From IMG/VR virus record IMGVR_UViG_3300049484_000260, positions 1-64,000 of that record: 64,000 nt of DNA; one strand, given 5' to 3'. The DNA is from a virus. Below the pieces are notes generated by a model. That model saw only the letters and a program-made list of their open reading frames with translations. It did no database searches and was not told the DNA's origin. Position 1 is the first letter of the stretch. Every line of letters begins with the position of its first letter. This document shows, in pieces, positions 41,842 through 59,371 of this stretch. A program made the translations under genes and the position numbers.

Positions 41842-43138
41842 GACGTATTCCCTTTGGTGATGGGGTAAATACAGGAATTGTAGCGAAAAAGGCACTACTT
41901 CTCGGTACTGGAGGGTGGTCAGATAAAGGAGCACGATCCAGGGCGACACTACCTCCACGGGTAGTTTCTTTGTAGGAGATTACTTTAGTAACTACCGGCT
42001 CTGCCCGGCAGAGGTCGAACATCGGCACTGGTGGGAGGTCAGAGGCTGCAAAAGGGTAATCCACCTCAGTCCAAGACCCATCAGGGTCGTCAGAAGGGCC
42101 AACGGCGGGTTCGGTAACGGGTTCAGCAGGTGTATCTGAGGGGAAATCTGGGGACGGGTAATCCACCTCAGTCCAAGACTCATCAGAACCCACCGAAATT
42201 GGCTCTCTCTTCGCTTCTTGGGTGGTAGGTGGTAGGTCAGGATGTTCTCCGCCAGAAAACGAATTTAACCCCCTTTCCGTGCGTTTCTGAGGGAACCCCT
42301 CCCCTATCTCTCCAAGGGCAGCCCGGTGCTCCAGATCAATCATGTATGCAATCAGGCGTGTAACCTCTTTAGTTCGTGACGAAAATCTCGTGACTAACTC
42401 CTGAATGCTTACTCCTTTTTTGTACAGGCGGTACATCTCGGCCTGCATCTGAATGGTCTTGATGTCGGCAAGGGTCGGAAGCTGAATCTTCTCCCCAGGG
42501 AAGAGGAAGAGCATAGCCAGCAATAAATCACCTTGCCCATTCTGCTCAAGGATGTGCGCCAGCTTAAATCTCGATCTGTCAGAGACAATCAATGACATAA
42601 ACTTAGTTGTGGTCGGGCCTACCTGTGTTAGATTTAGCATTTTCTTTGGTGTAATGAAATAGGAGAGGACTTTGCATCTGGTGGGTAACGTCATCTCTCC
42701 TAAATCATACTGAAGAGATTCTATAGATGCCTCTTTTAAAGGAAGCAGCTCTATGTCACTTTGCACGCAATGATCACTCTGTATCTCAGCTATGGAGCTA
42801 TCAAGAAGCTCTTCGTAAGAGACTGCATGATGCTCATAATGAGCTTTCAGAAAATTTGTCATTGCGTATCTAACGCCCGTGTACAGAAATGTTGATAGCT
42901 TATACGCAGGATTGTAATATCCCTGTTTCAGCATTGAGTAAATCTTAGCAAGCCCTTCTTGTGCTAAGTCCTCAAAAATATCACTGCCGACAAACCTTAG
43001 TGTATTACGGAAATGCTTAAAGAAAACCACACGACATAGAGCATGATACAGTGGGACGGATGTATCATCCCACTGAGCATCAAGAGCATCAATCTTAGTG
43101 AGGAGTGGTTCTCTACTTTCGGTCTTTATTGGTTTCAT
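41828..43138 (-). CDS. sigma-70-like transcription factor
   Basis: A 436-residue protein. Residues about 50-105 match region 2 of sigma-70 factors: DIFEDLAQEGLAKIYSMLK, then YNPAYKLSTFLYTGVRYAMTNFLKA, corresponding to D-L-x-Q-E-g-...-f-d-P-...-k-S-T-Y-...-I-r. A later segment, LYKKGVSIQELVTRFSSRTKEVTRLI, looks like a helix-turn-helix (region 4). The last 150 residues are Pro/Ser/Glu-rich and repeat EVDYP(S/F) motifs, unlike ordinary sigma factors. It would direct host RNA polymerase to phage promoters. The end overlaps the TPR gene. Confidence 0.68.
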   Translation of the reverse strand: MKPIKTESREPLLTKIDALDAQWDDTSVPLYHALCRVVFFKHFRNTLRFVGSDIFEDLAQEGLAKIYSMLKQGYYNPAYKLSTFLYTGVRYAMTNFLKAHYEHHAVSYEELLDSSIAEIQSDHCVQSDIELLPLKEASIESLQYDLGEMTLPTRCKVLSYFITPKKMLNLTQVGPTTTKFMSLIVSDRSRFKLAHILEQNGQGDLLLAMLFLFPGEKIQLPTLADIKTIQMQAEMYRLYKKGVSIQELVTRFSSRTKEVTRLIAYMIDLEHRAALGEIGEGFPQKRTERGLNSFSGGEHPDLPPTTQEAKREPISVGSDESWTEVDYPSPDFPSDTPAEPVTEPAVGPSDDPDGSWTEVDYPFAASDLPPVPMFDLCRAEPVVTKVISYKETTRGGSVALDRAPLSDHPPVPRSSAFFATIPVFTPSPKGIRHDHA

Positions 43139-45029
43139 CTGTAGGTGGTGCTGTGTTGTGATAAAGGAAACGAAAGAATGCCATCATAAGCCTCTCATCA
43201 GTGAAACTGTTCGTGCATATTGGAGAGAGTGAAATCCTCAACCACACCGGTATCGCTTTACGCAGGTGAGATATCTGAGGGGTTGCTCTAAGGAAGTGCT
43301 CAGATAGCTGTTCAAGGAATGAGAAGTAATCATCACGTAACGTAGCCAGCGGTACTTGTAAAGTCTGGTTAAGATAATCTGTAAACTTAGTGTAATCACC
43401 TTGTGAAGAGGCCACTAACATGCTAAAAAAGGTGGGAACCGTTGTTTTAAGTGTATGTACCGATTCTACCTCATCGAGTAGGATCATGTCAAGTAGATTA
43501 TCACAGGTTCTGACATGACCACGTGACTTACTGATTATAGACCGAATAACGTCACCGGAAAGCACCTTTCCTTTAATCTTTGTTATGTAATCAATTCGTT
43601 CCTTGATCTGCTGTGAGGACATTAGATTTAGATCGAGACGAAGACACCGTGACTGTAGAGGCTCGGACAGCGCATCTGCATCTGTTGTGCAGAAAATAAT
43701 GAAGGTGTCTTGTGGTGGCTCCTCGACTAAGGCCAGTAACGCTGACTGGGCTTCACGGGAGCAGCTCTGGGCTTCATCAAATATGACTGTCCTATATCCT
43801 CCAATATGCTTAGACCTCAAATCCTCACGTAGGCTCCTTACTGCCTCAATCCGACCAATAACACTTGAATCATATTCATAAGGATTAGAATGTGTAATAC
43901 ACTGAATACATTCCCCACAAGCGTCACCATTACGTTTAGAACAATTAACTGCTTTGGCAAATATCTTCGCCAATGTAGTATTATGATTGATGTACCCATC
44001 ACCGATAAAGGCATGAACCTTTGGAACGGTCAGGTCATAGAGAGGAATCGAGTCAACCAGCTCAACAGAAACCACCTGGTCTGCAAAAAGAGCACTCCTC
44101 CGGGTACGCCGTAAGACCACAGCGGACTTCTCATCAAGGAGGTATTCTGAAATCTTCTGAGCCTCCCCTTTACAGCTTCTCGCCAGCTTCTGGCTGTAGG
44201 GGCAGAGGACTGGATCAACAAGTTGGGAGAGGATTGAGTTCTTCATCAGAGGAATGAGGTTTACACGGTAGCTCTCAATGCCCCCAAGAGAATAGGGAGG
44301 AACCTTTTTGATTCGGCTGTAGCAGCCCATCAACGCAGCTACCGCTGCAATCGCCTGAGCGTACAGGAGGTGGGAGGTTTTTAGGGTGAGGCTTCTTTCC
44401 TCCTTGACCAAAAAGGCCACGTAGCCCATCTGCTTCTCATAGGAGCCAGAGATGAACTCATCATAGGTCATACATAGGGGGTAGGGGAGGTAACGGAATT
44501 CGTAAGAGGGGAAAGGAGGGAAGGGAGGTGGGGTATTCGTTACTACCCCTATGATGTGGTGGTGGACGGTAATCTTGGAGAGCTGTGTATAGGAGACCTT
44601 CCCTGTGTCTGTATTGAGGGTGAGGACTGGGTGATGGAGAGAGCCTATTACGCTCTTCCCTGCGGCTGTAGTGATTTTGATGGTCGGCTTTATGCCGGAG
44701 TAGTAGAGGTAGCTGACGGGGAGGGTGGTCTTACCGAAGTGGAGGGAGAGGGGGGTAGGTGGGACGTACTTCATTCCTTCTGCTTTAAGGGCAGGGAAGA
44801 GGGAGCGGATTTGGCGGATGCCGTTGGGGGTTTGAATGTGGGTATCGCCGGAGACGCACTTTCCGGTACCGAATGGCCCTGCGAGGAGGATGCTGTGGAA
44901 AGAGGTGGCCGGTGCTTTGGCGATGGCTTTGAGGGCCGCTTTTGGGGTTTCTTGGCCTATTACGTCTTTGAAGGTCTGTGGGCGGTGCGCGGTCGCGGTG
45001 TTCTGAGCTGTGCTGTAGGGTGATGCCAT
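43113..45029 (-). CDS. DnaX-like clamp loader ATPase interrupted by an intein
   Basis: A 638-residue precursor. The exteins join to a 345-residue DnaX/gamma-type clamp loader. HRPQTFKDVIGQE precedes the P-loop GPFGTGK (51-57), which is split from TTLAKIF by residues 58-350. The C-extein has a zinc module C-x7-C-x2-C-x2-C (CSKRNGDACGECIQC), the DEAQ Walker B (TVIFDEAQ) and LQSRCLRLDL (sensor/Arg-finger). Excision is needed to form an active P-loop. The ATG has the same leader as several Hint genes upstream (GGAG about 10 nt before). It overlaps the sigma gene by 26 nt. It loads the sliding clamp in replication. Confidence 0.92.
   Translation of the reverse strand: MASPYSTAQNTATAHRPQTFKDVIGQETPKAALKAIAKAPATSFHSILLAGPFGTGKCVSGDTHIQTPNGIRQIRSLFPALKAEGMKYVPPTPLSLHFGKTTLPVSYLYYSGIKPTIKITTAAGKSVIGSLHHPVLTLNTDTGKVSYTQLSKITVHHHIIGVVTNTPPPFPPFPSYEFRYLPYPLCMTYDEFISGSYEKQMGYVAFLVKEERSLTLKTSHLLYAQAIAAVAALMGCYSRIKKVPPYSLGGIESYRVNLIPLMKNSILSQLVDPVLCPYSQKLARSCKGEAQKISEYLLDEKSAVVLRRTRRSALFADQVVSVELVDSIPLYDLTVPKVHAFIGDGYINHNTTLAKIFAKAVNCSKRNGDACGECIQCITHSNPYEYDSSVIGRIEAVRSLREDLRSKHIGGYRTVIFDEAQSCSREAQSALLALVEEPPQDTFIIFCTTDADALSEPLQSRCLRLDLNLMSSQQIKERIDYITKIKGKVLSGDVIRSIISKSRGHVRTCDNLLDMILLDEVESVHTLKTTVPTFFSMLVASSQGDYTKFTDYLNQTLQVPLATLRDDYFSFLEQLSEHFLRATPQISHLRKAIPVWLRISLSPICTNSFTDERLMMAFFRFLYHNTAPPTDETNKDRK
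43980..44858 (-). other. intein in the clamp-loader P-loop (293 residues)
   Basis: Block A is CVSGDTHIQT (Cys1 at 44858-44856). Block B is GSLHHPVLT, with the conserved His. Blocks F/G run DQVVSVELVDSIPLYDL through HAFIGDGYINHN (Asn at 43982-43980), and Thr is the +1 residue. All residues needed for splicing are present. The middle (KQMGYVAFLVKEERSLTLK, then YAQAIAAVAALMGCYSRI) resembles one LAGLIDADG half of a homing endonuclease, but the acidic catalytic position is not evident. It therefore probably splices but may no longer home. It is the closest relative of the free-standing proteins upstream. Confidence 0.93.
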
Positions 45030-45087
45030 GATTTTTTATACTCCGGTTTTTGTGATGGTGGAAATGGCCGAAAAAAATGAACTTGGT
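45030..45087 (-). repeat. conserved Hint-gene leader, copy 1
   Basis: The 58-nt spacer between Hint-1 and the clamp-loader ATG is closely related to the spacers at 45925, 46902 and 47853. It includes TTCCACCATCA and CCGGAGTATAAAAAATC just before the ATG. The GGAG is the ribosome-binding site. Homology also extends into the coding 3' end upstream (GCAGCGAACTGA). Confidence 0.85.
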
Positions 45088-45924
45088 TCAGTTCGCTGCG
45101 GGCGCGGTGAGGACGAGGCCATTTGCAACGGCTGCATGGTTTCTGCATAAGCCCAAATCCCAAAGAGGAATTGGGTGATGCTCCTCTACACTGCATACCT
45201 GGTCAGAGAAGAGGACTGAGGGGCAAGGGAGGGAGCCAGAAAGAGGATGAGGATTAGTGATCCGCCCACAGCATCTCACCGCCTCAACAGGGTTGTAGAG
45301 GGAAGGGGAATTGTAGTAGCTCATGAGGGACTTGTTGAGCACAGATTCCTCAGAGAGGGGGAAGATGATGAGGAAAGTAGATTTCTCCTCTATGGATGCT
45401 TCCGCATAGCATCCCATCATGTTTACCACATTTATGAGCTGACGGGCATAGACTGGGTAACGAGTTTGCAGAGAGAGGTGGCCGTCTTTTGCGAAGATGA
45501 GCTTGGCTACGGCCTTGACCTGCTGTTCGTAGGTGAAGCAAACGGGGTTGGTGACAGTGGGGTAAAGGATGGTTTCGACTTTAGCTGCTGGGTCGTCCTC
45601 GGTGGAGATGAGAGGAGCGGGGTTGGTGGCTGCGCCTACCAGGTGAGCGTTCTTGGTAATCTCGGAAAGACGAGTTGGAGATATCTGCCCTGTCTTTTTG
45701 TCTATGGTGAGGACGGTCTGGTTCGGAGAGCCGGTCAGGTGCTTTCCAGAGCTGGTGGTGATTTCAATGGCCGGGTGGGTTCCGGTGTAGATGGCGTTGA
45801 CATTCCAAGCGTGGGCGTGCTTGGTCTGCTGAGAGAGGTGGCAGTCATCGAGGGTGCGGATGCCTTCGGGGGTGTAGGTCAGCGTGTTCCAAGCGAGGCC
45901 GGGAGGGGTGTGACTGGTCTTCAT
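45088..45924 (-). CDS. free-standing intein-like Hint protein 1
   Basis: A 278-residue protein that is an intein without exteins. Block A aligns as GLAWNTLTYTPEGIR, with Gly instead of Cys1. Block B is GSPNQTVLT, losing the His. An endonuclease-like stretch LIFAKDGHLSLQ retains an A-K-D-G at the LAGLIDADG position, then NVVNMMGCYA. Block F is SDQVCSVEEHHPIPLWDLGL. The end NGLVLTA replaces G-Y-I-N-H-N, followed by PAAN and stop. It belongs to the shorter subfamily with Hint-4 and Hint-6 (SYYNSPSLYNPVEAVR). It cannot splice by the normal route. It is next to the clamp-loader gene. Confidence 0.85.
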   Translation of the reverse strand: MKTSHTPPGLAWNTLTYTPEGIRTLDDCHLSQQTKHAHAWNVNAIYTGTHPAIEITTSSGKHLTGSPNQTVLTIDKKTGQISPTRLSEITKNAHLVGAATNPAPLISTEDDPAAKVETILYPTVTNPVCFTYEQQVKAVAKLIFAKDGHLSLQTRYPVYARQLINVVNMMGCYAEASIEEKSTFLIIFPLSEESVLNKSLMSYYNSPSLYNPVEAVRCCGRITNPHPLSGSLPCPSVLFSDQVCSVEEHHPIPLWDLGLCRNHAAVANGLVLTAPAAN

Positions 45925-45980
45925 GATTTTTATACTCCGGTTTTGATGATGGTGGAAATGGCCGAAAAAATGAAGTCGCT
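45925..45980 (-). repeat. conserved Hint-gene leader, copy 2
   Basis: A 56-nt spacer nearly identical to those at 45030 and 46902, containing the small inverted repeat GAAG-CGA-CTTC and the ribosome-binding CCGGAGTATAAAAATC before the Hint-1 ATG. Identity over the entire spacer suggests recent tandem duplication of gene plus leader. Confidence 0.88.
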
Positions 45981-46901
45981 TCAGTTCGCTGCGGGCGCGA
46001 CGAAGCCGCGCTGAATGTAACCGTTGCCGATAAAGGCTTGTGTCCTTGGGACGCTCATGCTGTAGAGAGGAATCGTGTCAGCCAGCTCAACAGAAACCAC
46101 CTGGTCTGCATAGAGGTGACTTCGCTTGAACTGTCGCAAGGACAGAGGTGGGTCGCAGGAGCGGAAGTACTCCGAAATCTTCTGAGCTGCCCCTCTACAG
46201 TTCCTGGCAAGGGGGAGGACATAGGAACAGAGGGATGGGCCAACGAGCTGGGAGAGGATTGAGTCCTTTACCAGAGGAACCAGACTTATGAGGAATCTCT
46301 CTCTTCCGCAATAGAGGGAGGGAGGAACCCTCTTAATACTGCTGTAACACCCCATCAACGCTGCTACCGCAGCAACCGCCTGAGCATAGAGGAGGGAGGG
46401 GAGTCTAAGAGAGAGGCTTCCTTCCATGACCAGAAAAGCTACATAGCCCATCTGCTTCGCATAGGAGCCTGAGAGAAATTCGTCATAGCTCATGTGTGCA
46501 GGGTAGGGGAGGTGGTTGAACTCGTAGGGGGAGGGAGGGGTTTCTGTGATAGGGGTATTCGCTACTACCCCTATCAGGTGGTGGTTCAGGGTGATCTGAG
46601 CGAGAGGGATGTACTCAATCCTTTTCGTTTCTGGATTGAGGGTGAGGACTGGGTGGTTGTAGGAGCCTATGAGGACTTTCCCGGAGCTGGTCTTGATCTG
46701 GGTGGTAGGCTTTACGCCGGAGTAGGAGAGGTAGGAGACAGGGTGGGTGGTTTTTCCAAAATGGAGAGCGGTCTGCTCTGGTGGGGTATATTTGATACCC
46801 TCTGCTTTGAGAGTAGGGAAGAGGGAGCGGATTTGACGGATGCCTTTGCTGGTCTGGATAAGCGTGGTGTCAGATACGGCAGGTGTGCGGGCAGGCTTCA
46901 T
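45981..46901 (-). CDS. free-standing intein-like Hint protein 2
   Basis: A 306-residue protein and the closest paralogue of the clamp-loader intein. Long identical blocks include GIRQIRSLFP, KQMGYVAFLV, AAVAALMGCYS and ADQVVSVEL. Block A is AVSDTTLIQT with Ala at the Cys1 position; block B GSYNHPVLT keeps its His; the C-terminus is GNGYIQRG, so His-Asn is replaced by Arg-Gly, then FVAPAAN-stop. The fold should be intact, but both splice-site nucleophiles are gone. The clamp-loader extein sequences are absent. Confidence 0.9.
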   Translation of the reverse strand: MKPARTPAVSDTTLIQTSKGIRQIRSLFPTLKAEGIKYTPPEQTALHFGKTTHPVSYLSYSGVKPTTQIKTSSGKVLIGSYNHPVLTLNPETKRIEYIPLAQITLNHHLIGVVANTPITETPPSPYEFNHLPYPAHMSYDEFLSGSYAKQMGYVAFLVMEGSLSLRLPSLLYAQAVAAVAALMGCYSSIKRVPPSLYCGRERFLISLVPLVKDSILSQLVGPSLCSYVLPLARNCRGAAQKISEYFRSCDPPLSLRQFKRSHLYADQVVSVELADTIPLYSMSVPRTQAFIGNGYIQRGFVAPAAN

Positions 46902-46958
46902 GATTTTTATACTCCGGTTTTGATGATGGTGGAAATGGCCGAAAAAAATGAAGTCGCT
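46902..46958 (-). repeat. conserved Hint-gene leader, copy 3
   Basis: A 57-nt spacer almost identical to copies 1 and 2, with the same GAAG-CGA-CTTC inverted repeat and the GGAG ribosome-binding site about 10 nt before the Hint-2 ATG. Confidence 0.88.
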
Positions 46959-47852
46959 TCAGTTCGCTGCTGGCGCGGTGGAACCGCGCTGAATGTAGCC
47001 ATCGCCGATGAAAGCATGAATGGGCGGAACGTGCGTGACATAGAGGGGGATTCGCACATCCGCATCGGCAGATGTTACCTGGTCTGAATAGAGAGTCCCC
47101 CCTCCTTCCTCAGCCAGCTTTATGGTCTCTGAGGCCTCATCGCTACGGGGGTACTCCATGCTGTACATGATGTCCCCTCTGCATCCATCTGCAATGCACT
47201 GGTCATAGGAGCAGTGGTCAGGATCAACAAGCTGAGAGAGGATTGAGGAATCAGATAGAGGGGTGAGGTTTACGAAGAACTTGGTGGGTGAACCCCCGGA
47301 TGTAGGGAGGTAGGTGATTTGGCTGTAGCACCCCATCAACGCTGCTACCGCAGCGAGAGCCTGGGCATAGAGGTGGGAGGGGAGTCTAAGGGAGAGGCAC
47401 TTTGCTTGCTGAACCCGGAAAGCTACGTAGTCCATCTGATCTGGGAGGGGGAGAGCAAGGAAATCCATGTAGGGGATAAAGGTGGGGATGTGGATGGGTT
47501 TAGAGGTGGGGTTATTGTTTGTCACTACTCCGATCAGGTGGTGGTACCGGGTGATTTTGGCAAGGGGGACGTACTCGACCTTCTGGGCTATGGTGTCAAG
47601 GACGAGGATTTGGTGTCTATAGCTACCGATTAGACACTTTCCTGCGGAGGTATTTATTTTGATGGTCGGCTTAATCCCAGTGTAGGTGAGGGTGGCCGGA
47701 TGAAGGCTCTTGCCGAAATGTAGGCTGTCTTTGTTGGACACAATCGTAAAGTCATCGTCTCTTCCGGTGGAGACCGGGAAAATGGCGCGGATTCCATCGG
47801 AGGTCTGGATATGAGTGCCGCCTGCGATGCCGGGTGTGGATGAGAGAATCAT
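46959..47852 (-). CDS. free-standing intein-like Hint protein 3
   Basis: The ATG at 47852 has the family leader and GGAG. A longer TTG-started frame overlaps Hint-4 and is not preferred. The product has 297 residues. Block A is GIAGGTHIQTSDGIR, with Gly for Cys1. Block B is GSYRHQILV (His kept). The middle AQALAAVAALMGCYSQI matches the intein endonuclease remnant. Block F is SDQVTSADADVRIPLYVTHV, and the end GDGYIQRG lacks His-Asn, followed by STAPAAN. It belongs to the same subfamily as the clamp-loader intein (shares LHFGKSLHP and SILSQLVDP). Confidence 0.88.
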   Translation of the reverse strand: MILSSTPGIAGGTHIQTSDGIRAIFPVSTGRDDDFTIVSNKDSLHFGKSLHPATLTYTGIKPTIKINTSAGKCLIGSYRHQILVLDTIAQKVEYVPLAKITRYHHLIGVVTNNNPTSKPIHIPTFIPYMDFLALPLPDQMDYVAFRVQQAKCLSLRLPSHLYAQALAAVAALMGCYSQITYLPTSGGSPTKFFVNLTPLSDSSILSQLVDPDHCSYDQCIADGCRGDIMYSMEYPRSDEASETIKLAEEGGGTLYSDQVTSADADVRIPLYVTHVPPIHAFIGDGYIQRGSTAPAAN

Positions 47853-47907
47853 GATTTCTATACTCCGGTTTTTCTGATGGTGGAAATGGATGAAAAATGA
47901 AGTCGCT
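47853..47907 (-). repeat. conserved Hint-gene leader, copy 4
   Basis: A 55-nt spacer related to copies 1-3 but with several substitutions and small indels, ending in CCGGAGTATAGAAATC before the Hint-3 ATG. Confidence 0.8.
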
Positions 47908-48726
47908 TCAGTTCGCTGCGCCAGTGACGATAAAGCCGTTGGCAAGAGCTGGCTGTGTGCTACATAAGCGCAAATCCCATAAGGGGAGCGAACCCTGATT
48001 TGCAATACTGACCACCTGCTCTGCATATAAAACTGAGGGGGTAGAAAGAAACTGATCAAGATCAGACTTCATCCCAGAAGGGAGGCTTGTAGAATTCGCC
48101 ATCAGTCCTCGACATCTCAAGGCTTCCTCCTGATTATAGAAGGAGGATGAGCCGTGATATATCATGAGGAACCTGTTGAGGGGGGCATCCTCAGAGAGGG
48201 GGGTAATTATGATGTTCGTCTCTGTACAAATGAACGCATGACACCCCATCATACTCACCATCGAGGCAAACTGGGGAGTGCGGTGAGGGGATGTGAGCTT
48301 CAGAGAGAGACGACCCCCTATTAACGTAAGGAGATTTGTGATTGCAGCGACCTGCTTCTCATAGGAGAGGAGGGTGATTCTTGAGTTTTCCGTAGGACTA
48401 AGCTCTGCCTCTTCACGTTCGGGTAGGACGGTGTAGGTGCTAACGGCTGCGCCGATCAAGTGGTGGTTCTTGGTGACTTGGGATATAGGGATTGGAAGTA
48501 TGTCCCTTGTCGTTTTGTGGATAGTCAGGATTCTGTGCTCGCGGGAGCCAGTCAGGGATTTCCCAGAGGCGGTGGTAATCTTGACGGCAGCCTGTACTGC
48601 GGCACGGCCGGGCATCGGGGTGGGATAGGGGGTGATGTTACGATCATTGATGCGACGAACACCACAGGCGGTCTGGATGAGGGTACCGCCAGCGAGGCCG
48701 GGAGAGGTCATATTGATGAGCTTCAT
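47908..48726 (-). CDS. free-standing intein-like Hint protein 4
   Basis: A 272-residue protein of the shorter subfamily with Hint-1. Block A is GLAGGTLIQTACGVR (Gly for Cys1). Block B is GSREHRILT (His kept). The endonuclease-like segment is AITNLLTLIGGRLSLK, then ASMVSMMGCHA. Block F is AEQVVSIANQGSLPLWDLRL. The end NGFIVTGAAN-stop replaces His-Asn with Thr-Gly. It is interrupted by no frameshift. Expected to fold as a splicing-dead Hint domain. Confidence 0.86.
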   Translation of the reverse strand: MKLINMTSPGLAGGTLIQTACGVRRINDRNITPYPTPMPGRAAVQAAVKITTASGKSLTGSREHRILTIHKTTRDILPIPISQVTKNHHLIGAAVSTYTVLPEREEAELSPTENSRITLLSYEKQVAAITNLLTLIGGRLSLKLTSPHRTPQFASMVSMMGCHAFICTETNIIITPLSEDAPLNRFLMIYHGSSSFYNQEEALRCRGLMANSTSLPSGMKSDLDQFLSTPSVLYAEQVVSIANQGSLPLWDLRLCSTQPALANGFIVTGAAN

Positions 48727-48779
48727 GGCTTTATAGTCCTGTATATGGTGGTATAAATGATCAAAAAGATGAAGTTGGT
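48727..48779 (-). repeat. diverged Hint-gene leader, copy 5
   Basis: A 53-nt spacer before the Hint-4 ATG that still aligns to the other leaders at its upstream end (GCGAACTGAACC) but is clearly diverged near the ATG (no clean GGAG). It marks the decay of the duplicated leader with distance from the clamp loader. Confidence 0.6.
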
Positions 48780-49742
48780 TCAGTTCGCTACCGAGCGGGG
48801 TGCACTGCGATAGATGTAACCATCTCCAACAAAAGAATGATACCGTGGAACGTACAAACTGTAAAGAGGAATCTTGTTGTAAATCTCTATAAATCCTTTT
48901 TGGTCTGTGTGTGTATGTTCAGAGTATTCAGTACACATACTACACACGCGATCCGCGAACAGTACCCCGTTAAACTCTCTAACTCTTTGTATAACCTCCT
49001 TTATCTCGTCACTAATGGCATACTCAGCGATGTAATTAGCTTCACCCTTATAGTCCCTTGCAGTCGTCCGGCTATACGTACAAAGATTACATCCTACAAG
49101 TTGCGAAAGGAGCGAGTTTTCCATCATAGGGATAAGGTTGACGTGGTAGCATGTTCTGGCTCCAATAGGCCATACTACTTCGTCAATAGAGCTGTAGCAG
49201 CCCATCATACTCGCAGTAGCTGCAAGAGACCGAGCATACAAAGGTGAGGTAGCTCGGATAGTGTGAGACTTCTCTTTCAAAACCAGAGAGGATACGCGAT
49301 CAGCTTGCTCGGCATAGTGTAAGGTGAGGAATTCCTCACAAGGGATATCCCTGCCTGGAGAGAATGGAGTGGGTGTGACCACATTTTGATTCGTTACCAT
49401 CCCAACCAGATAGTGCCCCAGTGTCACTTGAGCAAGGGGAGTATATTCCATTTTGTTTGAGATGGGATGAAGGGTCATGGCCCGATGGTCGAGGGAGCCT
49501 TCGATAGTCTTCCCTGCTACCGTAGTGATTCTGACAGTTGGTCTATGCCCTATGTACTGAAGGATTGCAGAGGGGGTGGGGGTTATCCCAAAACTTATAT
49601 GGTTCAATTTCTGCCGGATGTTGATACCGTGATCCTTTCTTTGTATCGGAAAGGTATTGTATATTGGGCGGATTCCTTGGTTGGTCTGAACAAGGGTGTC
49701 ACCAGCGACACCTACACTTGGTACCAGTCTAAGATGACGCAT
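48780..49742 (-). CDS. free-standing intein-like Hint protein 5
   Basis: A 320-residue protein of the same subfamily as the clamp-loader intein. Block A is GVAGDTLVQTNQGIR (Gly for Cys1; otherwise the best-preserved block A of the array). Block B is GSLDHRAMT (His kept). It has the ATASMMGCYSSI core and ENSLLSQLVG. Near the C-terminus a short insertion (EYSEHTHTDQKG) lies in block F before IPLYSLYV. The end is GDGYIYRS, then APRSVAN-stop. Splicing residues are lost at both ends. Confidence 0.87.
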   Translation of the reverse strand: MRHLRLVPSVGVAGDTLVQTNQGIRPIYNTFPIQRKDHGINIRQKLNHISFGITPTPSAILQYIGHRPTVRITTVAGKTIEGSLDHRAMTLHPISNKMEYTPLAQVTLGHYLVGMVTNQNVVTPTPFSPGRDIPCEEFLTLHYAEQADRVSSLVLKEKSHTIRATSPLYARSLAATASMMGCYSSIDEVVWPIGARTCYHVNLIPMMENSLLSQLVGCNLCTYSRTTARDYKGEANYIAEYAISDEIKEVIQRVREFNGVLFADRVCSMCTEYSEHTHTDQKGFIEIYNKIPLYSLYVPRYHSFVGDGYIYRSAPRSVAN

Positions 49743-49768
49743 AATCTTTGATCTCCTGTTTTATGTGT

Positions 49769-50746
49769 TCAAATATGTACACAAGAATTTGATTCTGGGT
49801 ACCTTGCTACGCCACCTACGATGTACCCGTCAGCCCAGTCATTATGACGAATAGTGGGGCATATCTCGTAAAGACGAATAGAGGTGTCTATTCTCTCGGC
49901 CCTTGTCACTTGATCAGAGTAAAGAAGAGAGGGGTCAGGGGCCATTAAATCTAAAAGACACTCCGTGTATCCATCCATAGATGATTGGGGCTTAGTCATC
50001 AGTCCGCGACAAGCTGAAGCGTATATTGGGTTGTAGTAAGATTGTGGAGAATTAAATGAGGAACAGAGCCTCATCAAAAGTTGGTTTAGAATAGATGACT
50101 CGGAGAGAGGGTTTATGTGTACAAAAGTGTACGACTGCTCTTCGTCATCCAGGTTTATATATCTTGATACTGAAGTATGACACCCCATTAAACTCGCTGA
50201 CGCAGCAAGGGATAGGGCGTAGTTATGGGAACTTTCCTTTATCGTAAGGAATCCTCCTGCGGATGAAAGGAGAGACCTAATGGCGATAATCTGTATCTGC
50301 TCCTCATACGTGAGAGAGAGGAAGCGTGATATATCGCAGTTATCTGGATGTACCGGACGTATCATTACATCGAGGTCTAAGTTGCACGCATTCATAGCTA
50401 TCCCTACCAGATGATGATGATATGTAGTAACCTCCTCTAAAGATATAAAGGATATAACCTCGGTTCTTGTGTCTATAGTGAGAACCGGATGCTCTGGAGA
50501 GCCGATTATAGTTTTCCCCGCATTTGTTTTGATCATCAATGCCTGTCCACAACCGCTACGGAATGTGTGCACACCTGTTCCGGGCATGTTGGGATACATT
50601 ATAAGTAATGGAGTCCCACTGTACGGGAAAAGACTATGTAGTTGTCTGATCGGGGTTGTCCTTTTTTTCACGGAAAAATTCCTGGCGGCCGGAACATCTG
50701 AATACAGATATCGCAGAAGGATCAATAGCTGAAAGGTTAAAGACAT
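49769..50746 (-). CDS. free-standing intein-like Hint protein 6, altered N-terminus
   Basis: A 325-residue protein with a hydrophobic start (LTFQLLILLRYLY), which might be a membrane segment or a product of decay. Block A is barely recognisable (FSVKKRTTPIRQLHSLFP). Block B is intact, GSPEHPVLT, with the His. The core is LAASASLMGCHTS. Block F is SDQVTRAERIDTSIRLYEI, and the end ADGYIVGG lacks His-Asn. The tail (YPESNSCVHI) differs from the AAN tails of Hints 1-5. The SYYNPIYASACRGLM segment puts it in the Hint-1/Hint-4 subfamily. An out-of-frame ORF beginning near 50793 covers the expected position of block A, so an old frameshift near the start is possible. Confidence 0.8.
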   Translation of the reverse strand: MSLTFQLLILLRYLYSDVPAARNFSVKKRTTPIRQLHSLFPYSGTPLLIMYPNMPGTGVHTFRSGCGQALMIKTNAGKTIIGSPEHPVLTIDTRTEVISFISLEEVTTYHHHLVGIAMNACNLDLDVMIRPVHPDNCDISRFLSLTYEEQIQIIAIRSLLSSAGGFLTIKESSHNYALSLAASASLMGCHTSVSRYINLDDEEQSYTFVHINPLSESSILNQLLMRLCSSFNSPQSYYNPIYASACRGLMTKPQSSMDGYTECLLDLMAPDPSLLYSDQVTRAERIDTSIRLYEICPTIRHNDWADGYIVGGVARYPESNSCVHI

Positions 50747-50834
50747 TGGTAAGAGCGGAAAGACCTACAAATGGGACGGTTCGGTTGTTATCCATGATAC
50801 TCACGATAAACTTTAGTTGATGGTGATAATGTTG

Positions 50835-51257
50835 TTATGAGAGTATAGACAAATCAGGAGGCTTACCTGACTGTAGTGAGGTAATACTTTGCAGTATAAT
50901 TGCTTGCCACACCACATCGCCAAGTGCGCGACGAATCGCGAGGCTTGCTTCATATAGCACCATAGCGGCATCTCTCCGTCCAATGTAATGCAGATCATAT
51001 CCTGCCGCATACAGGTAGTTTGCTCGCTCCAACATATTCTCTTCTGGCAATACGGAAGCAGCCTTCTGCCAAAAAGATGATGATATGTCGTAACGCATCT
51101 TCACTCTATTCAGTCGGGCTATATCAGCGTACCCAGTTGAAGCTGCGAGCTGGTGGTATGTGATTTCACTCAATGCGCGTTTAGTCTCATCTTCAGTATA
51201 TTCATTCTCATGGTGCACTGAAGGGCGATGAAATCTAATTCCGTGAGGCGGTTCCAT
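50835..51257 (-). CDS. TPR-like helical protein (140 aa)
   Basis: The ATG at 51257 is about 12 nt after GGAGGA; a GTG directly after it (51269) is the alternative start. The product is helical. Its second half, ANYLYAAGYDLHYIGRRDAA followed by VLYEASLAIRRALG, has the A-x-x-Y...G...A...L-Y-x-x-A-L pattern of a tetratricopeptide-like pair. Together with 51295-51858 it interrupts the Hint run. It may be an adaptor protein; no family can be named. Confidence 0.5.
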   Translation of the reverse strand: MEPPHGIRFHRPSVHHENEYTEDETKRALSEITYHQLAASTGYADIARLNRVKMRYDISSSFWQKAASVLPEENMLERANYLYAAGYDLHYIGRRDAAMVLYEASLAIRRALGDVVWQAIILQSITSLQSGKPPDLSILS

Positions 51258-51294
51258 AGCAATACACACTCCTCCATTAGCTATAATGGAAATA

Positions 51295-51858
51295 TTAAAT
51301 AGTGGCTATGTTCTTAGTTAATTCTCTCCAAGTTCCACCCAAGATATTGTCGATAGTAGCGAGACTGTAGTCACGGCTTAGGATGAACCGGGAAGCCGCC
51401 TCCCCCTTGAATATATACACCAGAAACAACCACAATATTCCCCCTAACGTGACGTTAAGACTAACGGCAGTACCGCTCGCATCAAACGCAATATAAAACA
51501 TTGATGTCTTACGTAGTAGTTCAGAAAGGATGTAACTCTCCCTCAACAGGGTTATCATTTTAGATGTCTCATCCTTCTCTTTGGCGATAAATGATCTCTC
51601 TGCCTCAAAAAGTCTGGTTCTTGCCTTCTGAAGGTTGGCTGCTATACGTATAAGAGATGGATCATTGCAGCTAAGACATTCCTTCCCTCTTGCATATTTA
51701 CGAATTGCAGAATTAAGAATCGATCTGTGCCGGGAGATGTCGGCCATATCCTGTCGATACTCCTGGCGAGCGAGTACTTCTTCTAATCTGCGCACTGATT
51801 TTGTGATCTCATTCATAGTATCTAATGAAATCATCCTCTTGGTGATGTATTCTATCAT
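51295..51858 (-). CDS. coiled-coil membrane protein (187 aa)
   Basis: The ATG at 51858 lies 10 nt after the Hint-7 stop and is preferred over a TTG at 51891 that overlaps Hint-7. The protein has a charged coiled coil (about residues 15-110, with a CLSC pair near the middle) and one strong hydrophobic segment (SLNVTLGGILWLFLVYIF). It should be an inner-membrane protein with a cytoplasmic helical domain. Family unknown. Confidence 0.5.
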   Translation of the reverse strand: MIEYITKRMISLDTMNEITKSVRRLEEVLARQEYRQDMADISRHRSILNSAIRKYARGKECLSCNDPSLIRIAANLQKARTRLFEAERSFIAKEKDETSKMITLLRESYILSELLRKTSMFYIAFDASGTAVSLNVTLGGILWLFLVYIFKGEAASRFILSRDYSLATIDNILGGTWRELTKNIATI

Positions 51859-51868
51859 AGTATATCCG

Positions 51869-52954
51869 CTATAGTTGTGAATTATATACAATCATTCCAT
51901 TAGCAGTAAATGCAGGGACATCTCCTACGTTAATCCCATACAAGGGTAGTTTTTCCAGCCACTCCACTTTAGTTACTTTGTCGGTGAACCCTGCAACCCC
52001 TCCACCCAAATTATTATCCTTCCCTGTAAACGCTCTTAAGGTTATTCTCTTTACGTCACGATCCTCGCTACAGAGGTTTAAGAGGTACTGCTCGTTCGTT
52101 ACATCTCTCGGAAAGTACATAGCACAATCATCAGCCCTGGCTGAGTTAAAGAAGGTCGGCTCCGATGAGCTACGCGGGAGGCTTGAAAGATAGTCGATAT
52201 CTCCTTGCTCTTTGTGTAATTCGAGGATAAGTTTGTTAAAGGACGACTCGTGGTATGTCGGGATTATAGTAACACGATATGATGATATCGTTCTTCTGAT
52301 TACTGAGAAACACCCGAACATACCGACTACAGTTGATATAGCTAAAGCATAACGGTAAGAGGGGGCGTTTACTACAGGGGGAGTAGGTTTACTTGATATC
52401 CTATAGCTGGGTATGCGATTAACAATCATTCCAGCTATTGTTAAAATCTGCTCTCTAAGGTTAAGTATGATGAATTTTTCATAGGTGACTCCTTTCTGAA
52501 TACTCCTTATATACGCAATATCGTCAGAGCGGAGATATGCGTTAAATAGAGTGCTATTGCTGATAGCCCCAATTATGAAATGCTTAGTAGATACATCCGA
52601 CATCGGAACGAATTGCATTATATTGTGCTTCTTACCAAAGCACATAACCAAAACGGGGAGGGATGGGGAGCCGTGTATAATCTTTCCTGAGATGGTAGTG
52701 ACTTTGTAAGTAAGGTCTAATCCTGTGTACATGAGACGACTAATTTCAGAGACCGTAGCCCCAATAGGTAATGAGATACGATCCCCTTCAGTAAGGGTGC
52801 GTCCTGTGTTTGGACTTAGTTCTGGAGATGCCATAAAATCAGGAGTACCTGCCCTCTTTCCGAAGAAAGTTTGGAGTTCTCTAACCCCATCCGTAGTCTG
52901 GATAAGGGTCTGCCCAGTTATTCCTGTGGCTGGTAGGAGATTCACAAATGCCAT
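51869..52954 (-). CDS. free-standing intein-like Hint protein 7, retains C-terminal Asn
   Basis: A 361-residue protein, diverged and AT-rich. Block A is GITGQTLIQTTDGVR with Gly for Cys1 and eleven or so residues before it. Block B is GSPSLPVLV, in which the His is lost. The core is ISTVVGMFGCFSVI, and a long insertion lies between it and block F (TDKVTKVEWLEKLPLYGINV). The end is ANGMIVYN followed by Ser-Gln-Leu-stop, so unlike its paralogues it keeps the terminal Asn and a Ser at +1. C-terminal Asn cyclisation is conceivable, though Tyr replaces the penultimate His. A candidate promoter lies upstream. Confidence 0.82.
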   Translation of the reverse strand: MAFVNLLPATGITGQTLIQTTDGVRELQTFFGKRAGTPDFMASPELSPNTGRTLTEGDRISLPIGATVSEISRLMYTGLDLTYKVTTISGKIIHGSPSLPVLVMCFGKKHNIMQFVPMSDVSTKHFIIGAISNSTLFNAYLRSDDIAYIRSIQKGVTYEKFIILNLREQILTIAGMIVNRIPSYRISSKPTPPVVNAPSYRYALAISTVVGMFGCFSVIRRTISSYRVTIIPTYHESSFNKLILELHKEQGDIDYLSSLPRSSSEPTFFNSARADDCAMYFPRDVTNEQYLLNLCSEDRDVKRITLRAFTGKDNNLGGGVAGFTDKVTKVEWLEKLPLYGINVGDVPAFTANGMIVYNSQL

Positions 52955-53015
52955 TTACTTACCTCGGTATATGTAGTATTTAGCTGTTACTTCGTAGGGA
53001 CTCTGTATTGCTACT

Positions 53016-53044
53016 AACATAGCATATATCTTAGTTAATTACAA
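53016..53044 (-). promoter_or_regulatory. candidate sigma-70 promoter upstream of Hint-7
   Basis: On the minus strand TTGTAA (53044-53039) and TATGTT (53021-53016) are separated by 17 nt. Each matches four of six consensus positions. They lie in the 137-nt gap before the Hint-7 gene, the longest gap in the array. The inverted repeat GTGTTTA/TAAACAC near 53068-53091 lies further upstream. Confidence 0.4.
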
Positions 53045-53091
53045 GTATATTCGTAACAGCTTAAGCGTGTTTATCGTGACGGGTAAACACC

Positions 53092-54027
53092 CTACACAGG
53101 CGAAGGAGGGAGGATATATCCTTCAGCCACAACAGCCTCTGTTCCCTCCGCTGTGAATGCGGTTAGGTCTTTGACTTCATCTCTTACCTCTATAACCCTA
53201 CTGAAACATAAGGTACAGCTCTCAAACGTAAACTTAGAGATGATGTTTGCCACATCTTCCCTCACCTTCCTACATCCTAACATGATGGATGAGGGTGTCT
53301 TGCGCAAAGGGAGAAGTTGATATGAATGCGCTGAATGTGAGAATACGTTAAAGGATTTGCATCTCGATCCACCCTGTCGTGTAGGGAGAAAGCTAACTAC
53401 AGTTTGTGACGGGTTCCAGAGAGGGGCGATACTAACCCTTAATTGCGCACCATCATCTATTACTTCTACGTCTATGCTCGTAAAACATCTGACAGCGCGG
53501 GTGACAGCAGAGACTGCTCTCGCGTATCTGTATGACGGTAGTTTAAGGTCGATTACATCAGAGGAAGTGTCTTCACAGTCTATAGAGGAGTCTATCATGT
53601 TCTTCACATGATCGATCTGATGTCTTAGGTCTGCCGCAGTTAATTCTTTATAGCTAATTGGTATAAAACATCCACCTGAAACCGAATGATCGGGAGGGAA
53701 TGATGAAAATGATGAAGAAACTTGGATCAAGCTATGCTGCCACCCTATACATGACATAGGGATTATTTCTATACTCCCTGTAATGTCGTTAGACACGACA
53801 ATGCGCTGCGACGGAGACCCTGTTATACCTCCACCAGATGAGGTCAATACGGTAATAGCTGGCTTGTTTCCAATGCGACGATATGCCCATATATCGTGTA
53901 TATTCATCCCACAGACAATATCTGGAGACGGACATGTGACTACATCACCTATTTCCCTAACTCCTTCAGAACTCTGTACGAGAGTAGATGGTGTTACTCC
54001 ATGAATTACGCACACAGCATTGTGCAT
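53092..54027 (-). CDS. free-standing intein-like Hint protein 8
   Basis: A 311-residue, strongly diverged member. Block A is GVTPSTLVQSSEGVR (Gly for Cys1). Block B is GSPSQRIVV, where the His is replaced by Gln. The core is YRYARAVSAVTRAVRCFTSI. Block F is SRVIEVRDEVKDLTAF, with the usual IPLY part missing, and the end AEGYILPPSPV lacks His-Asn. The pattern of conserved glycines and hydrophobics still supports a Hint fold. AT-rich, like Hints 7 and 9. Confidence 0.75.
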   Translation of the reverse strand: MHNAVCVIHGVTPSTLVQSSEGVREIGDVVTCPSPDIVCGMNIHDIWAYRRIGNKPAITVLTSSGGGITGSPSQRIVVSNDITGSIEIIPMSCIGWQHSLIQVSSSFSSFPPDHSVSGGCFIPISYKELTAADLRHQIDHVKNMIDSSIDCEDTSSDVIDLKLPSYRYARAVSAVTRAVRCFTSIDVEVIDDGAQLRVSIAPLWNPSQTVVSFLPTRQGGSRCKSFNVFSHSAHSYQLLPLRKTPSSIMLGCRKVREDVANIISKFTFESCTLCFSRVIEVRDEVKDLTAFTAEGTEAVVAEGYILPPSPV

Positions 54028-54084
54028 ATTACACCCCAGTAGTTGTCATTGTAAAGATAAACTTCTTAGCAACAGTAGTAAATC

Positions 54085-55116
54085 CTATGGATGCTGTAGA
54101 ATAAATCCATTCCCCATAAAGACCATAGGATGATCGAGCCTGAGACAATGTAGCATCTCCTTACATGATGAAACGGAGGATATAACTTCAGAGTACATTA
54201 TAGGGGTTACGTTATGTCTCAATGACCCTATATTAGACACATAATTACTCATAATAAGGTCTCTAATTGAAGGAGGAATATTCCAACAGTCCGGTTCTAT
54301 ATCTTGTAAAGCTCTATATGCCCCTGATATATTACTGTGACGATAGAACGTATTTACGGGGTGAATATCTCTCCCAACTACCGATGAATGCTTACGTTGA
54401 TTTTTTATTCTCCCGTTCAAATAATGCTGATATGTCGATGATAGGTACTGCTCCATCAACATAATATTAAAAACTGAGTCATTACCCATAGGAGACAGGT
54501 AAATTGTGAAAGGTGGTTTGTCAGAATTGTGTCGTCTATATTCCTTTATCGCTGAATAGCATCCAGCCATCCCAGCAACACAAGATACTGTATTCGCAAT
54601 ATCGAACGATGATACATTCAAGAACAAGTTACGATTATTACTGAAAGAGATAGAAGGGATACATACATGTAATATGCTCCCTAAGACTACAGCGATTTGC
54701 TGACGGTAGTTAAGATTAGCTATATTAGATAGATCATTTCTGTAGGAGGTGGAGGAGGTGATCGATCCTGGGTGGATATTGCACGTACCGCCAACAACAG
54801 CATAGGATGGGGTGAGCGATGATATCGACACGAATTCTACGCAATCTTTATCCTCGCGGTTATACGCAAGTACGCGAAGGTCTGGTGATCCTGTAATAAC
54901 CTTTCCAGACTTAGTTACCACTGTTATTGCGTCGCATATACCTCCAGAACGTACTGACTCGATGCGGGTATCCGAGCTAAGGAGTGATACGTACCTCCCA
55001 TCAGAGGTGGATGTGATTTCGTTGACGTTACTTATCGGGGTTATACCCCTAAAATAATTATCGACTGAGTGTAAGTTCACCAGAGTGCGACCACACACTG
55101 CGCTAACGAATGCCAT
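54085..55116 (-). CDS. free-standing intein-like Hint protein 9
   Basis: A 343-residue member and the first of the array to be transcribed. Block A is poorly kept (AVCGRTLVN, with a Cys three residues from the usual place), followed by RGITPI. Block B is GSPDLRVLAYN, His replaced by Leu. The core is IANTVSCVAGMAGCYSAIKE. Block F is SEVISSVSSCKEMLHCLRLDHPMVFMGNGFI, ending QHP-stop, without the terminal Asn. It opens MAFVSAV, like the MAFVNLL of Hint-7. Identification relies on the order of blocks shared with the better-conserved copies. Confidence 0.72.
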   Translation of the reverse strand: MAFVSAVCGRTLVNLHSVDNYFRGITPISNVNEITSTSDGRYVSLLSSDTRIESVRSGGICDAITVVTKSGKVITGSPDLRVLAYNREDKDCVEFVSISSLTPSYAVVGGTCNIHPGSITSSTSYRNDLSNIANLNYRQQIAVVLGSILHVCIPSISFSNNRNLFLNVSSFDIANTVSCVAGMAGCYSAIKEYRRHNSDKPPFTIYLSPMGNDSVFNIMLMEQYLSSTYQHYLNGRIKNQRKHSSVVGRDIHPVNTFYRHSNISGAYRALQDIEPDCWNIPPSIRDLIMSNYVSNIGSLRHNVTPIMYSEVISSVSSCKEMLHCLRLDHPMVFMGNGFILQHP

Positions 55117-57196: not shown

Positions 57197-57784
57197 TCAT
57201 TTAATATTTGCATACGTTCTTATCAAGGTCGGGATACGGCAGTCCCCGAATAGGTCTCCCAGGTCTTTAGCATGATATGGGGTTGGGAATATTATACAAG
57301 GTACCCCTAAACTCGTAAGACGTTTACGTGAGTATGAAGCTCCTATCATCCCAGGATTACGACCGTCTGGTCTAATATCGTTATCATGTATAATTATTAC
57401 TCTACGTATCAGACCTATTTTATATAGAATAGATACCCATCTGGTCTGATACATATTGAGACCGTTATTTAAGATGGCAGCCGCGCACTCTGCATATCGA
57501 TAGACAGTCATAAGGTCTGCGATCCCCTCAGTAAGAATTAAATTCCCTGTCATTGGGGTGGATATAAATGCCAAAGGCATAGCACCTAAATAGTGCTCAT
57601 GCTTCCCACTAATAGCCGACCTTATATAATACCCGCTGGGAATTCCTGCCCAGTCATATAGCATAGTATATAATGATGACTCAGTTACACCATCAAATAC
57701 ATTAGTCATTCCTTTAAACTTTGTAGGCTCTGAGGCTATTATCTTTTTCCAGTGAGGAGGTAGGGCTGTAGAATCTATTATCAT
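57197..57784 (-). CDS. TOPRIM-domain protein, primase-like
   Basis: A 195-residue protein. Residues 82-180 form a TOPRIM domain: LILTEGIADLMT (Glu86), IIHDNDI with Asp134/Asp136, GASYSRKRLTSLGVP, and HAKDLGDLF. This resembles the catalytic domain of DnaG-type and plasmid/phage primases and of topoisomerases. There is no zinc-binding domain or helicase part, and the protein is shorter than DnaG. It may be one subunit of a split primase, with the zinc-ribbon protein at 59320-60360 a possible partner. The start overlaps the upstream gene stop in ATGA. Confidence 0.72.
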   Translation of the reverse strand: MIIDSTALPPHWKKIIASEPTKFKGMTNVFDGVTESSLYTMLYDWAGIPSGYYIRSAISGKHEHYLGAMPLAFISTPMTGNLILTEGIADLMTVYRYAECAAAILNNGLNMYQTRWVSILYKIGLIRRVIIIHDNDIRPDGRNPGMIGASYSRKRLTSLGVPCIIFPTPYHAKDLGDLFGDCRIPTLIRTYANIK

Positions 57785-58872
57785 GATGTATAGAACTTTG
57801 GCTCAATTCCTAATTTAGTATAGAGACGCAATAATGGTTTTGTAAGGCGTTGTACTTTCTTCTTGCCTTGGTATCGATACCCCCACCACTTAGGAAGTGG
57901 CTCTCCTGCTGCTGTGATAGCTCGTGCAAGCTCGTTGTATGATGAGAGCATGACCACCTTTAATGGCTCTTTTTCTGGGTACAGGAAAAGGAGGGTCGGT
58001 CTCTCTAAGTAATCTGCTATCTGTCTTAGAAGTTTCGGTAGTTCGGAAACAGGAACTCCAGCGCGGGTACATTGCCTCTCAGGGATCATGAAATTAACCA
58101 TTCGGTGTATTACCCCACGTACCCTCCACCGATTAGGATCATGCTGGTTGCGCGAATGTGAGTGATCGACAACGGCGACAGATAAGTCCAGAGGGCGACC
58201 TGTAACCAAGCATCTCCCTCCCTGAATGGCAAGCTGAAACTCTCTAAATGATGAGAGTGTAGAGTGTTTCAGTTTTACTACCTCAGCACGGAGTAAAAAT
58301 GGAGTGAGAAGACACTCATACGGCCCATGACTGGGCGGCCATGATGGGAAGGAATCGTAGCTTGTTCTGAGTGATACCTCTGCGTACTCATAGGTTGTAC
58401 ATAGGGTGGGTTTCTGTATTTCGGGAGTTACACTGGTCAGGATCAGCCATGATAATTCCGTAGGAGATTTTCGGTACGCCTGACTCTTTTCCCTCAGAGG
58501 GAAGCCCTGACTCTCTGCAACCATCTTTTTAAGTAAGCTACCCAGTGGTATCTCCGGCGGCCCGGCTGCCGCCACCTTGGGGAACACACCGACCATCTCC
58601 GGCGGCCCGGCTGCCGCCACCTTGGGGAACACACCGGCCATCTCCGGCGGCCCGGCTGCCGCCACCTTGGGGAACACACCGACCATCTCCGGCGGCCCGG
58701 CTGCCGCCACCTTGGGGAACACACCGACCATCTCCGGCGGCCCGGCTGCCGCCACCTTGGGGAACACACCGCCCATCTCCGGCGGCCCGGCTGCCGCCAC
58801 CTTGGGGAACACACCAGCCTTGCTAAACTTGACCACAGGCAGGAGTAGCCCTTTACATTGTGTGTACTTCAT
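57781..58872 (-). CDS. endonuclease VII-like HNH protein with 15-residue repeats
   Basis: The ATG at 58872 follows GGGGAG at 7 nt, which is better than a TTG at 58899. The product has about 363 residues. Residues about 20-110 are six tandem copies of a 15-residue unit containing GVFPKVAAAGPPEM. The C-terminal half contains RCLVTGRPL, then AVVDHSHSRNQH (His at about 237 and 239) and VRGVIHRMVNF (Asn at about 260), the DH-x-H...RG...N pattern of T4 endonuclease VII and related HNH resolvases. It probably resolves branched DNA before packaging. The repeat is absent from ordinary family members. Confidence 0.7.
   Translation of the reverse strand: MKYTQCKGLLLPVVKFSKAGVFPKVAAAGPPEMGGVFPKVAAAGPPEMVGVFPKVAAAGPPEMVGVFPKVAAAGPPEMAGVFPKVAAAGPPEMVGVFPKVAAAGPPEIPLGSLLKKMVAESQGFPLREKSQAYRKSPTELSWLILTSVTPEIQKPTLCTTYEYAEVSLRTSYDSFPSWPPSHGPYECLLTPFLLRAEVVKLKHSTLSSFREFQLAIQGGRCLVTGRPLDLSVAVVDHSHSRNQHDPNRWRVRGVIHRMVNFMIPERQCTRAGVPVSELPKLLRQIADYLERPTLLFLYPEKEPLKVVMLSSYNELARAITAAGEPLPKWWGYRYQGKKKVQRLTKPLLRLYTKLGIEPKFYTS
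58551..58815. repeat. 45-bp tandem repeat, five full plus one partial copy
   Basis: The unit of 45 bp (15 codons) recurs at 58551-58590 (partial), 58591-58635, 58636-58680, 58681-58725, 58726-58770 and 58771-58815. Copies differ only at the codon for the residue before Gly-Val (Val, Ala or Gly). Being a multiple of three, it is open in several frames on both strands. High GC and near identity indicate recent expansion. It is inside the endonuclease VII-like gene. Confidence 0.97.
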
Positions 58873-59371
58873 GCCTATCTCCCCGCAAATACTCTTCAAT
58901 AGCAGCCAGTGATTTCATAGGCTTCCGCACCCTCACCCTTCTGGTGTGGTATGCCTCAGTGATATACGATGGTACATCCTCAAGGTACCCTGATTGGTTT
59001 TTATATTTCATGTTTTTGTAGGATGTCTCTACCCACACATTGTCCTGAAACTTATACCGTACCAGCTCCTCCTGACCAACCCCCCTGACAAATACCACCC
59101 CTGATGGAATAGCTTGCACTATCACCACCCTCCTCCGTACTTCACCAAAAGATGAAGGATGTACAGCAACACACTGAGGGAGGACTGAATCATCGCTCAC
59201 TCGTGCTAACTGTAGGTTGCAGGAGATAGTGTTTATTTCTTCTTTTAGAGCTAACGCATCATTTCTCAGTTGTAAGAATTTAAGACGCTTTTCTTTTAGC
59301 TCCGCCTCAAGACGCTCTGTCACTGGCCCCTTAATAAGGGGTGGGATGAATATCTTGGTATATTCTGCCAT
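58853..59371 (-). CDS. coiled-coil DNA-replication-region protein (172 aa)
   Basis: A 172-residue protein with an N-terminal coiled coil (about residues 18-60) followed by a compact beta-rich domain containing RRRVVIVQAIPSG and VRVRKPMKS. AGGGAG lies at the right spacing before the ATG. It overlaps the zinc-ribbon gene by 52 nt. Function unknown. Confidence 0.55.
   Translation of the reverse strand: MAEYTKIFIPPLIKGPVTERLEAELKEKRLKFLQLRNDALALKEEINTISCNLQLARVSDDSVLPQCVAVHPSSFGEVRRRVVIVQAIPSGVVFVRGVGQEELVRYKFQDNVWVETSYKNMKYKNQSGYLEDVPSYITEAYHTRRVRVRKPMKSLAAIEEYLRGDRHEVHTM

Follow-up and report, generated by a model that had tools for sequence, protein, structure and literature searches.

A tandem array of nine free-standing, intein-like genes upstream of an intein-containing dnaX gene in a tailed phage, probably derived from that intein

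The analysed stretch of DNA (the window) comprises 64,000 nucleotides and is part of a 66,805-base IMG/VR virus record. The record belongs to a tailed phage and includes genes for an HK97-type capsid, a portal protein, a distant TerL, RecA-like and SbcC/D-like proteins and a clamp loader. Its terminal ORF (segment L010:6600-6803, outside the window) is made of PAQQFAPTAQPFVP repeats and the record stops within it; the assembly was probably interrupted at this point, and part of the genome may be missing. Another repeat-containing ORF at 57781-58899 has a weak match to endonuclease VII and carries six tandem GVFPKVAAAGPPEM-like units close to its start.

The clamp loader gene dnaX (gamma/tau-like) lies on the minus strand at 43113-45029 and was matched by PF13177 (E 5.6e-17), Intein_splicing (E 4.4e-8) and TIGR02397 (E 4.8e-39). 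It is composed of an N-extein (44859-45029), an intact intein termed INT (43977-44858, 294 amino acids counting the +1 Thr) and a C-extein (43113-43976), all on the minus strand. The insertion point is in the P-loop, GPFGTGK^TT. Inspection of the sequence showed that INT keeps Cys1, the block-B His and the C-terminal ...GYINHN/T, and it consists of a Hint domain and one LAGLIDADG-like repeat, which is eroded. In Vibrio phage GR7B (MT366760.1) a helicase-like protein was noticed to have an unannotated intein at a comparable place, its P-loop.

Directly upstream of dnaX, nine separately translated ORFs that are homologous to its intein occupy 45088-55116 on the same minus strand. They were named from g1, which adjoins dnaX, to g9, the farthest, and bring the number of intein-like units to ten when the one within dnaX is included. 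The first four are g1 (45088-45924, 278 amino acids), g2 (45981-46901, 306 amino acids, 62% identical to the intein), g3 (46959-47852, 297 amino acids) and g4 (47908-48726, 272 amino acids). They are followed by g5 (48780-49742, 320 amino acids) and g6 (49769-50746, 325 amino acids as an ORF). The start of g6 is uncertain, and an internal GTG near 50669 has a Shine-Dalgarno-like site. Two ORFs that are not Hint proteins separate g6 from g7 on the same strand, one at 50835-51269 with a weak TPR match and one at 51295-51891 of no clear family. The array ends with g7 (51869-52954, 361 amino acids), g8 (53092-54027, 311 amino acids) and g9 (54085-55116, 343 amino acids), the last being among the most diverged members. 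Sites of the type GGAG or AGGA precede g1 to g5 at normal spacing. For g3, the program-listed ORF with a TTG start (46959-48059) was rejected as overlong, and the ATG with its GGAG Shine-Dalgarno site gives 46959-47852.

The relationship to the intein was tested with tblastn of DnaX against its own genome, in which the intein regions of all nine ORFs were matched with E values from 2e-114 (g2) to 6e-6 (g8). A profile of the family found exactly ten places in the 66,805-base record, each with E < 1e-87 and none with an internal stop; the rows of the profile are the same ten units, so the E values follow by construction, which does not apply to the number of places or to the lack of stops. The homology of the array is far above chance. 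Misassembly as the source of the array was ruled out, as the copies are 35-70% identical in DNA. An Rfam search gave no match, and models of defence systems had no match on the Hint proteins. An earlier note on this DNA had described nine intact intein-like ORFs here, paralogous to the intein of the neighbouring clamp loader, and the searches bear it out; its further description of them as free-standing, without exteins and separately translated agrees with the starts and Shine-Dalgarno sites that each appears to have of its own.

The genes are joined by a conserved junction, about 75 bp long, that starts in the last codons of one gene and includes the Shine-Dalgarno site of the next. The minus-strand junction upstream of dnaX (45030-45087) contains the stop codon, a small hairpin and a GGAG Shine-Dalgarno site and shares 88-89% identity with those preceding g1 (45925-45980) and g2 (46902-46958), which are 96% identical to each other. 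The junction upstream of g3 (47853-47907) has 3 mismatches in 37, and the one upstream of g4 (48727-48779) is about 70% identical. In three junctions (45030-48779) a hairpin, TGAAG-CGA-CTTCA with a T-run, stands straight after the stop codon; upstream of dnaX it reads TGAAC-CAA-GTTCA with a T-run, the inner pair being altered on both sides. The hairpin is possibly a weak terminator or a processing site.

The intein, the N-extein and g1 to g4 together form a block of distinct composition (43977-48780), where the fraction of C at 4-fold sites is 0.46-0.50. In 50 other genes the mean is 0.186 (sd 0.057, maximum 0.317), and just beyond the block the C-extein has 0.16 and g5, the first gene outside, 0.23. 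The first impression of a smooth gradient was discarded, since the 4-fold sites show a step. It is sharp at both edges, one at about 48780-48816 in the g4/g5 junction and the other between 44193 and 43977, in the final part of the intein or just at its 3' terminus. Most simply, the whole block would have been acquired at once by recombination with a genome that differs in composition; as one edge coincides with the homing site or lies close to it, dnaX would then be a chimera. A local mutational bias could in principle produce such a composition, but is opposed by the sharp step and by the presence of the short N-extein within the block. Long ORFs are also present on the opposite (plus) strand over the block (45247-46014, 46494-47087 and 44556-45023), likely a by-product of the few A-ending codons.

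The fold of the array proteins was investigated by structure prediction. The AlphaFold2 model of g2 (pLDDT 78, pTM 0.81) matched solved inteins, namely the TliVMA intein (E 2e-9), the MxeGyrA intein (8e-7) and many others. For g9 the model was weaker (pLDDT 62) and its best matches were still solved inteins, those with a homing endonuclease (TliVMA, E 1.5e-5). Among the matches listed from a viral structure library almost all were inteins within longer proteins; the one short target among those listed was a 'homing endonuclease' of Bodo saltans virus with 277 residues. The models and the family alignment thus point to a Hint fold with the block order of an intein. Between the Hint halves the models place one LAGLIDADG-like repeat consisting of a helix, a short strand, a helix, two strands and a helix. 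The core was assigned to LAGLIDADG by fold match and motif position, and its motif is degenerate, with a plausible acidic residue in INT, g1, g2 and g5 only. A Pfam search gave no LAGLIDADG match, and hhalign covered the Hint-N part only. With this degenerate motif and a reduced first strand pair, cleavage by the core is unlikely.

In contrast to the intein in dnaX, the array copies have lost the residues required for splicing. Cys1 is replaced by Gly or Ala in all nine genes, with an uncertain alignment for g6. The block-B His is kept in g2 to g6 only, with Gln or Leu in its place in g1, g7, g8 and g9. The terminal His-Asn is missing in eight of the nine, and g7 has Tyr-Asn-Ser where the dnaX intein has His-Asn-Thr. 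Judged by these residues, the array copies are presumably splicing-dead. The end of g7, ...IVYN/SQL, retains the Asn and the +1 Ser of block G despite the loss of Cys1 and of the block-B His, and its C-terminal cleavage might survive. Nine positions are invariant in the family (in intein numbering Thr64, Gly67, Gly72, Ser73, Gln143, Cys179, Pro203, Leu273 and Gly288), and these residues are structural.

The predicted charge differs between members. INT, g2, g4, g5, g7 and g9 are basic, and g1, g3, g6 and g8 are acidic (pI about 6); this mixture, six units against four, argues against one uniform DNA-binding role. The charge almost alternates along the array, which could hint at a pairing of neighbours or could be chance. 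CxxC motifs number at most two, in g5 only, and a zinc finger is absent.

These results support the main structural claim of the earlier note, as the Hint fold is predicted for both proteins that were modelled. Its block order A, B, core and F holds for the family in general, but block A is unrecognisable in g6 and the MGC motif of the core is not universal, being FGC in g7, VRC in g8 and AGC in g9, so that the Cys alone is invariant. The picture of intein-like copies with an endonuclease-like core was right in the fold, but it missed that the splicing residues are lost and that the core is eroded. It likewise overlooked the composition block common to g1 to g4, the N-extein and the intein, and the exchange through the junctions that is described below.

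To what extent the frames are under selection was determined from the substitutions between copies. Over the whole body the dN/dS was 0.24-0.42 for the unsaturated pairs INT-g2, INT-g3, g2-g3 and g1-g4; synonymous sites are near saturation except in the closest pairs, and the conservation of second positions also holds in the diverged ones. When random substitution was simulated at 30% divergence, about seven stops arose on average and the frame stayed intact in 0.1% of the trials, and at 42% divergence it never did. The proposal that the intact frames argue for selection is therefore upheld, and the dN/dS between copies, well below 1, speaks against pseudogenes. Because of this purifying selection and the Shine-Dalgarno sites, the proteins g1 to g9 are very probably made and used. 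Both the selection and the recombination described below were read from one genome.

The history of the copies was followed in a tree of the ten units, where the intein is a single tip. Clade I contains INT, g2, g3 and g5 (support 99/98) and clade II contains g1, g4 and g6 (84/89); g7 groups with g8 (88/87) and g9 stands alone on a long branch. Outward from dnaX the clades follow each other as I, II, I, I, II, I, II and then g7 to g9, which looks as if a I-II pair had multiplied. The junctions do not follow the tree. Those of g1 and g2 are 96% identical while the encoded proteins share 30% identity and fall into separate clades, whereas g1 and g4 are in the same clade and have junctions of 71% identity. 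Junctions and bodies hence have separate histories. In addition, g2 is a mosaic with an intein-like body (nt 34-852) and array-type ends that both resemble g3, a pattern reached in 0 of 200 permutations. The synonymous divergence also pairs INT with g2 (0.86, compared with 1.2 to g3). The bodies thus appear to recombine like cassettes, with the intein or a recent ancestor of it among the partners.

Relatives of the array were searched for in several collections. Scans of viral contigs with Hint alignments, the capsid, the portal, the DnaX C-extein and the junction DNA yielded no relatives, and one scan of genome contigs found nothing; single-protein scans of this kind reach close relatives only. 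With TerL and two phage homologues as query, 80 distant loci were obtained that are at most 32% identical. The family profile was run against 49 TerL-locus records and one phage record and detected single ordinary inteins in four of them and no array; 20 of the searched TerL-locus records are without a DnaX match and are therefore not close kin. A tblastn search of g2, g5, g7 and the intein against 50,697 phage records showed ordinary inteins and no array; two Erwinia phages gave a weak match (E 0.05) whose kind is unclear. A plasmid collection queried with the intein contained no array. Taken together, no homologous array was found in the phage, plasmid, viral-contig and genome collections at the sensitivities used.

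We consider it probable that the array is a lineage-specific, domesticated multigene family which derives from the intein, recombines with its parent and encodes non-catalytic binding proteins. This grading covers the statement as a whole; what it says on structure and evolution is much more certain than what it says on function. The sequence shows that intein copies have been freed as separate genes with their own ribosome-binding sites, in tandem directly upstream of dnaX, and that they have lost the splicing residues and retained the Hint fold with the eroded LAGLIDADG-like repeat. The array would grow and be reshuffled by recombination through the junction, with bodies being swapped among the array genes and the intein. 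The N-extein, the intein and g1 to g4 would have entered as a single piece, bounded on one side within the final ~215 nt of the intein or by its 3' end. Block import and reshuffling are suggested by the junction identity, the mosaic ends and the sharp composition step. As the frames are kept by purifying selection the proteins should work, and as no active site is left they are most likely binding proteins. The target may be the DNA around the intein and dnaX, as for WhiA, or the intein or DnaX precursor, and the role may be one that favours fast diversification, e.g. a competition with related phages or homing elements.

A bolder reading is possible rather than probable. The intein may have turned into a new multigene system of expressed, splicing-dead proteins whose bodies are exchanged, through the junctions, among themselves and with those of the live intein in an essential replication gene. 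If this is true, the fast-diversifying family might serve phage competition or host-factor escape.

The best of the remaining explanations, which we regard as unlikely, is taken from the WHO elements of the yeasts Torulaspora and Lachancea. These are free-standing genes of intein type that lie in tandem next to FBA1; they are 24-55% identical, have no block G and with every integration replace one end of their host gene (PMC7282813). Each array gene would accordingly act, or have acted, as a homing endonuclease on dnaX without residing in it, and each homing event would replace the 5' end of dnaX and push older copies upstream. The anatomy of the array is that of the yeast clusters, with 20-62% identity, loss of block G and ends of the host gene that may differ in origin. 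Similarity is also highest between INT and the dnaX-proximal copies, which fits an order in which the newest stand nearest to the host gene. However, displaced fragments of the dnaX N-extein are absent from the array, and its members have no zinc finger and a single eroded repeat, in which only a few of them carry an acidic residue close to the catalytic position. The complete intein in dnaX would moreover already block the site.

The copies could also act in trans. Bound to the intein or to DnaX precursor that is still unspliced, perhaps by Hint-Hint contacts or a pairing of the LAGLIDADG repeats, they would time the active clamp loader. The position directly upstream of dnaX on the same strand and the conserved Hint scaffold are consistent with such regulators, as is the insertion in the P-loop, by which splicing gates the activity of DnaX. 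Nine copies that have diverged to about 20% identity are hard to fit to one shared partner, and we judge this explanation distinctly improbable.

A gene-conversion reservoir, that is a silent archive which renews the intein sequence, was among the roles that the earlier note proposed. The exchange with the intein is supported by the g2 body, which is a sister of the intein with swapped ends, and by the homogenised junctions. A pure reservoir is weakened by the purifying selection on the frames, because Shine-Dalgarno sites and nine intact frames at a dN/dS of 0.3-0.4 would be superfluous in a silent archive; this role is very doubtful. Ordinary decaying intein duplicates, for which the tandem duplication, the lost catalytic residues and the damaged start of g6 would speak, can practically be dismissed, as none of the nine frames has an internal stop where random substitution predicts about 7-11 each, and dN/dS is well below 1.

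The domesticated family that we favour has its nearest known counterparts in yeast. That such an arrangement was undescribed, as had been claimed, is too strong, since the WHO clusters and HO, a domesticated stand-alone relative of inteins, are stand-alone intein-like genes (PMC7282813). Like WHO elements, the array genes are stand-alone, without exteins, in tandem beside a housekeeping host gene, of low mutual identity and without block G. The WHO host gene is chimeric, and dnaX (one allele) may be so too, its N-extein having the alien composition of the intein and g1 to g4 and its C-extein not. Unlike the phage array, WHO elements have a zinc finger with 3-5 CxxC motifs and an active endonuclease, their clusters contain fragments of the host gene, and their host gene is without an intein, whereas neither N- nor C-extein fragments of dnaX were found within the array and dnaX carries the live parent intein. 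HO, which like WhiA is a precedent for the path proposed here, is likewise independently expressed and does not splice, but it is a single gene with an active endonuclease and a zinc finger, and cuts MAT. The array is therefore a variant of stand-alone intein-derived genes and not a WHO element.

Class 1 inteins with an eroded endonuclease, to which the dnaX copy itself belongs (TliVMA/PhoVMA and MxeGyrA were the fold matches), share the Hint fold, the block order and a remnant LAGLIDADG-type core with the array copies, which differ by the absence of exteins, Cys1 and the terminal His-Asn. Free-standing homing endonucleases of phages and their HEG islands are also clusters of genes derived from mobile elements beside essential phage genes, but they encode GIY-YIG or HNH nucleases and not intein-derived Hint proteins (PMC10448857). 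WhiA (DUF199), which is LAGLIDADG-derived and became a regulator after it had lost cleavage (a precedent cited in PMC7282813), has no Hint domain and is a precedent only for how the proteins might work. Searches of open-access literature for stand-alone or domesticated inteins, for intein duplication in phages and for arrays revealed no phage case.

Inteins are usually viewed as selfish inserts with a regulatory effect on the host protein at most. HO and WHO were the only well-documented stand-alone genes of intein origin, and WHO the only such clusters, found in the open-access literature. Compared with these, the phage array would be an independent case of intein domestication, and one without retained nuclease activity. 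It would offer a tractable system for the role of the Hint fold once splicing is lost, and the exchange with a live intein would make the co-evolution of intein and host gene directly testable.
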